A DNA stretch of 38,729 nucleotides from an uncultured Wohlfahrtiimonas sp. GTDB taxonomy: Bacteria > Pseudomonadota > Gammaproteobacteria > Cardiobacteriales > Wohlfahrtiimonadaceae. The translations under genes were made by a program, and so were the position numbers. The DNA lies in NCBI GenBank assembly GCA_947631095.1, contig CANRJX010000008.1, positions 1 to 38,729 on the forward strand, read 5' to 3'. This document shows, in pieces, positions 32,756-37,213 of the stretch; positions within the stretch are counted from its first letter, which is position 1; each line of letters begins with the position of its first letter. Under the pieces are notes generated by a model that was not told the origin of the DNA, did not search any database, and saw nothing but the letters and a program-made list of their open reading frames with translations.

Positions 32756-34372
32756 TTATAGAGTATCCATATCAATATTTTCCCAATCCACTAGAGATGG
32801 AAATATCCAGTCATTCTGAAAAGATCGATTGGTTAATTTAGGACTAAAACCAGTTTGCACTCTATTCCACTCTTCCTGATGCAATCGCAAAACTACACTT
32901 GTCACGAGTTTTTTATCTAATCCACTATTAACTATCTGCTTAACAGATTGATTTTTTTCAATATATAAACTCAATATTTTATCGATTTCAAAAATATTCG
33001 TCACTTTGCCTTCATTAATAAAACGTTTTTTTAGGAGTGTATTTTTCGCTTTTTCTAAGACATCATGAGTAAAAATATTTGTTTGATTAGACTCATTGAT
33101 ATACTCTGCCAACTGCACAATCTTAGTATGATAAACATCAGCCAAAGGCATAAACTCAGTCAATGCAAAGCTTGAAATTTGGCCTTTTAATCCAAGTGCA
33201 AGTTGTGTTTTATTCACACTACTCACTGGCCATGCATCTAATAAATCCGCGACTGCAACAAAAATTGCAATTTTAAAACGATCAAATGTGTCTATTTTCC
33301 AACGTTCATCAACCAAATGCTCAGCTTGACTAATAAAACCATGTACCAACTCATTCTCTAACTGCCAGCTATATAATTTAACATCCAAACTGTCGACAAA
33401 TTGCTGAACTTTTTCTTTGGTTTTAGGTGAATCTAATTGAGATTGAATGTATAAGCCTGCAACTTTTTGTGGTCCCAAAGCTTTTAAAGCTATGTACAAT
33501 GTTAGCTGAGAACTGATGCTACCATCCATTAATATCAAGGCTTTACTGTGTGGCGCGGTCGTAATAAATTCTTTAATCACAAACTTAATGGCCCAATATA
33601 ACTCCTTAATATAATTATCAACTTTGTTGTAGATAGGATGCTCTAAATCTAATAGTTGATTCATTGAAGTTATGACAGAATCTTCCTCAAAATGGCGCAA
33701 TATCAACAATGTATTTCCATCAGCATTGGTGATTGATGAATAACCCTCCAAAATAAGGCTATTGGAAACACCTATATTATTGACATAAATAATTGGTATT
33801 TTTTTCTCATACGCTAATGAATGTAAGTACTGCTCTCTTTCAATGCTTAAATCTTTAGACCAAGGAAATGCAGCACAACAACACAATAAATCACACTTAG
33901 ATAATGCTGCTTCTGAAAACAACTCTTCAGAAATCACAATGCCAATTTTGATTCCTTTAAAATCAATCACTGTTTGCTTAGTTCCAGCGATAAAGTAACG
34001 ATTTTCTGCATATAGCTCAACATTTGGAATAATTGTTTTACGATGATTACCAATAATTTTGCCATTCATCATAATCGCAACACTGCTATAAACACCCTCA
34101 GATGTTTTTTCAGGATAACCCACCAATGTTACCGCATAGCCGTTGGTGCACTTAGCAATTTCCAATAAAGCTGATTTACATGATTCTAAAAATTGATCTT
34201 TTAAAAAAAAATCATCTGCGCCATAGCCTGAAACACATAATTCAGGAAAAACAATTAGTTCTGCACCTTTTTCTTGTGATTTTTTAATCGTTTCTATTAT
34301 TTTTATTGTATTTGCTTTAACATCTCCACCGATACTACGTATTTGCTCTAAGGCAATTTGTAGATTATACAT
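32756..34372 (-). CDS. NAD+ synthetase (glutamine-type) homologue with degenerate active sites; probable pseudoenzyme
   Basis: Length (538 residues from the ATG at 34372) and two-domain layout match glutamine-dependent NadE: nitrilase-like glutaminase (about 1-250), then the ATP-pyrophosphatase synthetase domain. The glutaminase keeps Glu44 (FPELC) and Lys112 (HRKT), but the cysteine of the usual ICED motif is Ser148 (VISEE). The SGGxDS ATP loop is DGSISS (283-288). The GNKSE motif is VNKTQ, and YGDxxGG is replaced by ISSFALT (about 399-405). Structural motifs such as NRYF and DVYHTK remain. The frame is open throughout, so it is not an obvious decaying pseudogene. GGAG lies about ten bases before 34372; an ATG at 34381 is possible. 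A regulatory or lost-function role is inferred. Confidence 0.8.
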   Translation of the reverse strand: MYNLQIALEQIRSIGGDVKANTIKIIETIKKSQEKGAELIVFPELCVSGYGADDFFLKDQFLESCKSALLEIAKCTNGYAVTLVGYPEKTSEGVYSSVAIMMNGKIIGNHRKTIIPNVELYAENRYFIAGTKQTVIDFKGIKIGIVISEELFSEAALSKCDLLCCCAAFPWSKDLSIEREQYLHSLAYEKKIPIIYVNNIGVSNSLILEGYSSITNADGNTLLILRHFEEDSVITSMNQLLDLEHPIYNKVDNYIKELYWAIKFVIKEFITTAPHSKALILMDGSISSQLTLYIALKALGPQKVAGLYIQSQLDSPKTKEKVQQFVDSLDVKLYSWQLENELVHGFISQAEHLVDERWKIDTFDRFKIAIFVAVADLLDAWPVSSVNKTQLALGLKGQISSFALTEFMPLADVYHTKIVQLAEYINESNQTNIFTHDVLEKAKNTLLKKRFINEGKVTNIFEIDKILSLYIEKNQSVKQIVNSGLDKKLVTSVVLRLHQEEWNRVQTGFSPKLTNRSFQNDWIFPSLVDWENIDMDTL

Positions 34373-34412
34373 ATTTCCCATTCTCCCTATGGTTTTATGC
34401 CATTATCGCATA

Positions 34413-36865: not shown

Positions 36866-37213
36866 TTACGGTTCAGCGCTCATCCAATTCATGCCCACTG
36901 TGATTTCTTGCTCATGTTCAGTACAAACAGTAACCGTTTCTCCTAGGTTATTGGTCACTCCAACAAAAGAATCACCTTGAGAAGAAATTTTATATTCTAA
37001 ATTTGGCCATGGCTCACCGGATGGCAATCTAAGTACAAAATTCTTTTTATAAGGAACACCTTCATCGACAATCAGCTCGCCTTTTGTATTCACACACCCA
37101 GAGGGGACATCATGATGCAAAACTGGATCGAGATAAAATTCAACATCTTGTTGGCTATCTACTGACAAAATATTAGCGTAGGTTGATATCAAATAAATAA
37201 TAATGGCTTTCAT
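36866..37213 (-). CDS. Small exported protein of unknown function
   Basis: I do not recognise a named family. The 115-residue product has a weak signal peptide (about 1-20). Residues 57-107 follow the pattern N-FVLRLPSG...G-VTNNLGETVTVCTEHEQEITV, reminiscent of a short beta-sandwich repeat found at the ends of some type VI secretion spike or effector proteins; no such genes are nearby. Two cysteines (40 and 97) may pair. It converges on the L,D-transpeptidase with two bases between stops. A clear ribosome binding site is lacking. Confidence 0.6.
   Translation of the reverse strand: MKAIIIYLISTYANILSVDSQQDVEFYLDPVLHHDVPSGCVNTKGELIVDEGVPYKKNFVLRLPSGEPWPNLEYKISSQGDSFVGVTNNLGETVTVCTEHEQEITVGMNWMSAEP

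Follow-up and report, generated by a model that had tools for sequence, protein, structure and literature searches.

What does a gene for a glutamine-dependent NAD synthetase encode once its catalytic motifs are gone and its frame has stayed open? This question is raised by a locus in a 38,729-nucleotide stretch of DNA from an uncultured Wohlfahrtiimonas sp. (the window), where the open frame at 32756-34372 on the minus strand, with 538 codons, specifies a homologue of that enzyme, here called pseudo-NadE. We placed its start at the ATG at 34372, not at 34381, because the orthologues align from MYNLQIA. The features discussed below are as follows:

32756..34372, minus strand: pseudo-NadE gene, 538 aa, stop codon included
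33653..34372, minus strand: nitrilase-type glutaminase domain, residues ~1-240 (PF00795 and predicted fold)
34241..34243, minus strand: Glu44, catalytic acid/base, kept (alignment with canonical NadE)
34037..34039, minus strand: Lys112, catalytic lysine, kept (alignment with canonical NadE)
34004..34006, minus strand: Glu123, second glutamate of the nitrilase site, kept (alignment; role from PMC6946656)
33929..33931, minus strand: Ser148 (TCT), replacing the nucleophilic Cys (Ser in 8/8 pseudo-NadE, Cys in 56/56 canonical proteins)
32759..33613, minus strand: NAD-synthetase (ATP-pyrophosphatase) domain, residues ~254-538, catalytic motifs gone (PF02540 and motif comparison)
33509..33526, minus strand: DGSISS, residues 283-288, replacing the SGGxDS pyrophosphate loop (motif comparison)
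33203..33214, minus strand: NKTQ, residues 387-390, replacing NKSE (motif comparison)
33158..33178, minus strand: ISSFALT, residues 399-405, replacing the YGDMAGG loop (motif comparison; structure model of low confidence at 397-404)

The first-pass annotation had described a full-length, open NadE homologue, and four matches bore this out. Pfam placed PF00795 (carbon-nitrogen hydrolase) on residues 6-236 (2.8e-21) and PF02540 (NAD synthase) on residues 262-505 (2.3e-15). The PRK13981 glutamine-NadE model scored 298.4 bits over residues 3-530, which is below its NCBIfam equivalog cut-off of 479 bits, and PDB entry 5kha aligned end to end over residues 3-531 (E=8e-51). The protein has the NadE-Gln layout, a nitrilase domain fused to an NAD synthase domain in ~540 aa. 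AlphaFold2, run on an 11-sequence alignment, returned a full-length fold (pLDDT 79.7, pTM 0.79), with weak regions at residues 343-351, at the former YGD loop (397-404) and at the C-terminus; a model from a 3-sequence alignment (pLDDT 44) was discarded. In VIA-align the model matched 3n05 (Z 37.1, rmsd 2.2 over 507 residues), 5kha (Z 35.7) and also 4f4h, an agreement that is partly built in because the alignment included canonical NadE rows. Thus, the NadE-Gln fold is predicted to be kept.

The motif list of the first-pass annotation (Ser148, DGSISS, VNKTQ, ISSFALT) proved right by codon check and alignment. In the canonical set, SGGxDS and a Cys at the Ser148 position are each present in 56/56 proteins. 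The window protein also reads ISEE for ICED, VNKTQ for GNKSE and QISSFALT for YGDMAGG, and the Q-D-D C-terminal residues of NadE-Gln are gone. However, the broader claim that the catalytic motifs are lost applies to the synthetase domain and not to the glutaminase site, where the nucleophile alone has gone. In the human and Mycobacterium tuberculosis enzymes this site is built from Cys, Glu and Lys plus a second Glu, which a Tyr holds in position (PMC6946656). In pseudo-NadE, Glu44, Lys112, Glu123, Tyr50 and Glu149 are kept in 8/8 orthologous proteins, and the chance probability that E44, Y50, K112 and E123 would all be retained is 0.006. The proposed loss of both NAD-synthetase half-reactions is upheld, since motifs essential to each are missing and neither would be expected to proceed. 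Compared with characterised NadE-Gln (PRK13981; 5kha, 4f4h, 3n05), pseudo-NadE shares domain order, length, full-length homology and predicted fold, together with the Glu, Lys, second Glu and Tyr of the glutaminase site; it differs in the Cys-to-Ser change, in the loss of SGGxDS, NKSE, YGD and Q-D-D, and in its score (298 vs 479 bits).

Wohlfahrtiimonas is a fly-associated genus, placed in Cardiobacteriales, Ignatzschineriaceae, and the nearest named records of the protein come from it (86% and 67% identical, the latter from W. populi). The gene is present in 6/6 Wohlfahrtiimonas genomes and in 2/2 genomes of a second genus, with 30% protein identity between the two genera, and in all eight proteins the ATP loop is broken and Ser148 is present. 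Elsewhere in the family and order, genera either have no such gene or give only partial matches to other nitrilase-fold proteins; the sole exception is genome G001, whose long NadE belongs to another type. The related genus g4 has no pseudo-NadE in any of its nine genomes, and absence from genus g2 is uncertain because a single genome, 80% complete, stands for that genus. A search for other dead members in 369 class-level and 398 phylum-level genomes returned canonical proteins for all 56 nearest two-domain NadE, and the best matches outside the family (289 bits) were likewise canonical.

In the tree, the eight dead proteins lie on one side of a branch with 100/100 support, with the caveat that the branches are long. 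We therefore tested shared replacements directly. At the 23 positions that are conserved in canonical proteins and changed in both genera, 10 replacements are identical, compared with 2.1 expected under a BLOSUM-weighted chance model, whose simulated maximum was 9. Independent decay in the two genera is disfavoured by the monophyly (100/100) and by these shared replacements. In the recN tree the second genus and g4 are sister groups, and the simplest history would have the dead form present in the family ancestor and later, apparently, lost in g4.

For the closest unsaturated species pair, pseudo-nadE shows dN 0.032 and dS 0.69 (dN/dS 0.047), and its pyrophosphatase part alone dN 0.011 and dS 0.44. 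In the same genome pair, recN gives dN 0.015 and dS 0.288 (ratio ~0.05), and nadE dN 0.019 and dS 0.207 (ratio ~0.09). More distant pairs were left out because their synonymous sites are near or at saturation. By this measure the pseudo-NadE gene is functional. The earlier remark that the reading frame is kept is supported, as long-term retention under purifying selection, by the orthologue dN/dS of 0.047 at dS 0.69 and by presence in 6/6 genomes of the genus. A pseudogene or a sequencing error is ruled out by eight concordant copies, their open frames and the dN/dS. As a separate observation, synonymous sites have diverged two to three times as far in pseudo-nadE (dS 0.69) as in recN and nadE of the same two genomes, which may mean low expression.

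Comparison of the two domains argues against uniform decay, a point that the first-pass annotation had missed. Of 109 positions near-invariant in canonical proteins, 23 are kept in all eight dead proteins, namely 13/42 in the glutaminase domain and 10/67 in the synthetase domain. Twenty-six columns are newly fixed in both genera. Beside the site, both genera have Phe169 in place of the Ser of the NASP motif, with Trp171-Ser172 after it, and the second genus additionally lacks Pro116, Arg125, Phe127 and Arg179. Within the genus, changed positions of the glutaminase domain exceed the domain average in conservation (0.86 vs 0.66, P=0.002), in a test of 20 positions in six related sequences where residues near the folded core are conserved anyway and which is no proof of a ligand. 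In contrast, changed positions of the synthetase domain follow background drift (0.61 vs 0.63, P=0.66). We read this pattern as a nitrilase pocket that has probably been re-tailored and constrained, sitting on a decayed synthetase domain.

The assembly of the window genome (81.5% complete, 212 contigs) carries an intact short, ammonia-type NadE on contig 26, with LSGGVDS and KYGDGGVD, so that the active NadE suggested to lie elsewhere has been located. Its gene adjoins pncB-like and hemW-like genes, and the genome also has a nadC-family gene and adenylyltransferase-family genes. This E. coli-type enzyme resembles pseudo-NadE in the fold of its synthetase domain but has no glutaminase domain, keeps its motifs and is encoded elsewhere in the same genome. 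Because an intact short NadE is present, the two-domain protein is probably not needed for NAD synthesis, which we infer is done by the separate ammonia-dependent enzyme. A strong short NadE match occurs in 29/32 genomes of the order, including 9/9 g4 genomes. An ammonia-rich animal or manure habitat is a plausible reason why the glutamine-dependent enzyme became dispensable. In two other genomes, G014 (100% complete) and G015 (80% complete), PF02540 gives only weak matches to another ATP-pyrophosphatase type; these organisms may be without NadE and have some other way to obtain NAD. Separately, glutamine-type NadE whose motifs are intact is encoded on viral-classed contigs in IMG/VR (L140-L147), one of them 545 kb long.

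The surroundings of the gene point to no partner or substrate. In the window, recN is divergent to it, Bax1-I family, L,D-transpeptidase and hydrolase genes lie in the vicinity, and the gene showed no strong match to a promoter consensus. In the second genus the neighbours differ, and an ftsY-like gene adjoins the pseudo-NadE gene. Between the L,D-transpeptidase gene and guaA, a 115-aa open frame (36866-37213, minus strand) has no Pfam match.

With essential residues lost, the fold kept by prediction and purifying selection in place, pseudo-NadE has the properties of a pseudoenzyme. We are highly confident that selection maintains the protein and that it does not work as an NAD synthetase; any direct catalytic part in NAD synthesis is very unlikely. 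The alternative of an enzyme that still makes NAD with unusual motifs, or of a sequence error, could draw on the overall fold and the retained glutaminase residues; the lost ATP-pyrophosphate loop, the 10/67 near-invariant synthetase residues kept in all eight proteins, the agreement of eight sequences and the existence of an intact NadE make it highly improbable. Somewhat less far-fetched, and still very improbable, is a glutamine-NadE that the short NadE has rendered redundant and that is now being lost. The apparent loss in g4 and a divergence between the genera faster than that of recN (30% vs 56% identity) would fit such a relic, but the frame is open in 8/8 copies, the dN/dS of ~0.05 is like that of recN, and the shared dead-state residues predate the split of the two genera. 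Regulation by PII was also considered, since PII binds some glutamine-dependent NadE: in Azospirillum it binds NadE2-Gln and relieves inhibition by NAD+ (PMC7196632). The PII family (PF00543) was found in 0/18 family genomes (G000, G015-G031), 15 with a completeness of 90% or more, and in 13/14 control genomes. PII regulation of NadE-Gln cannot apply where the PII gene is not found, and a role as PII decoy or sensor, excluded on this ground barring a PII homologue that escaped recognition, is barely credible.

Two further explanations, each of which we consider doubtful, deserve more weight. NadE is normally a dimer through its synthetase domain, and pseudo-NadE, with the same fold and a synthetase domain of full length, might enter mixed oligomers with the short NadE through its dead domain and tune it as a regulatory or structural partner. 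NAD synthetases with separate glutaminase and synthetase subunits do exist in Thermus (PMC3376133): in Thermus thermophilus, a glutaminase-type and a synthetase polypeptide form one enzyme with both sites active, whereas the glutaminase domain of pseudo-NadE lacks its Cys and any complex would be putative. The two genes are not adjacent: they lie ~32-40 kb apart in the three Wohlfahrtiimonas genomes that carry both on one contig, but ~620 kb apart in the second genus (G017). Moreover, the lost synthetase-domain sites drift at the background rate, and all nine g4 genomes have a strong short NadE match and no pseudo-NadE, so NadE does without it in that genus. Partnership with the active NadE is possible but unsupported. 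The other explanation, of equal standing, is a new hydrolase or acyltransferase in which a Glu-Lys-Glu-Ser site acts on a new substrate, such as an ester or activated amide, with the synthetase domain as scaffold. Ser148, E44, K112 and E123 are invariant in 8/8 proteins, pocket positions are fixed, and the C387S mutant of Lnt forms an acyl-enzyme (PMC3850990). However, the nitrilase-superfamily enzymes that have been characterised rely on Cys (general knowledge; PMC6946656), the gene context hints at no substrate, and mycobacterial BCG_2279c, with the same Cys-to-Ser change, failed to replace Lnt function (PMC3850990). BCG_2279c is a close parallel for the nucleophile: like pseudo-NadE, it is a nitrilase-superfamily protein with a natural Cys-to-Ser change and an active paralogue; unlike pseudo-NadE, it is a membrane protein of the apolipoprotein N-acyltransferase family, with the nucleophile as the only member of its catalytic triad reported changed and with no second dead catalytic domain (PMC3850990).

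We tentatively favour, with somewhat less than even confidence in the full mechanism, a retained pseudoenzyme derived from glutamine-dependent NAD synthetase, whose re-tailored pocket would serve a ligand-binding regulatory or structural protein. In this mechanism, the glutaminase domain keeps Glu44, Lys112, Glu123 and Tyr50 with Ser148 in the place of the nucleophile, within a newly fixed pocket of Gly51-Ala52, Ser96, His110-Arg111, Phe169 and Trp171-Ser172. Glutamine would not be turned over for NAD synthesis; instead, the pocket would bind a small ligand other than glutamine, or hold a slow or stable Ser adduct. The decayed synthetase domain keeps scaffold residues and probably mediates oligomerisation, and occupancy by the ligand would control a putative partner. 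We prefer this ligand-binding Ser148 pocket because Cys-to-Ser relatives among the nitrilases can still hold ligands: by their titles, the solved structures 4hgd and 5h8l are Cys-to-Ser mutants with ligand, of yeast Nit2 and of a plant N-carbamoylputrescine amidohydrolase, and in Lnt C387S the acyl-enzyme forms while transfer does not (PMC3850990). A more specific and more speculative version, which we regard as unlikely, is a receptor derived from NAD synthetase in which the Ser nitrilase site holds a metabolite, perhaps as a stable acyl-Ser, and the dead domain signals to a partner, in bacteria without PII nitrogen signalling.

We found no prior description of an inactive NAD synthetase paralogue or pseudoenzyme in the openly licensed literature. 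Judged from its sequence, the window protein is a doubly dead amidotransferase kept by selection, and the pseudoenzyme label holds up; an automatic 'NAD synthase' annotation would be wrong for it. Its retention for longer than the age of the genus suggests that an amidotransferase scaffold can find new use once its original catalysis is gone. With one dead paralogue, one live enzyme and no PII proteins, these bacteria offer a simple test system for its role.
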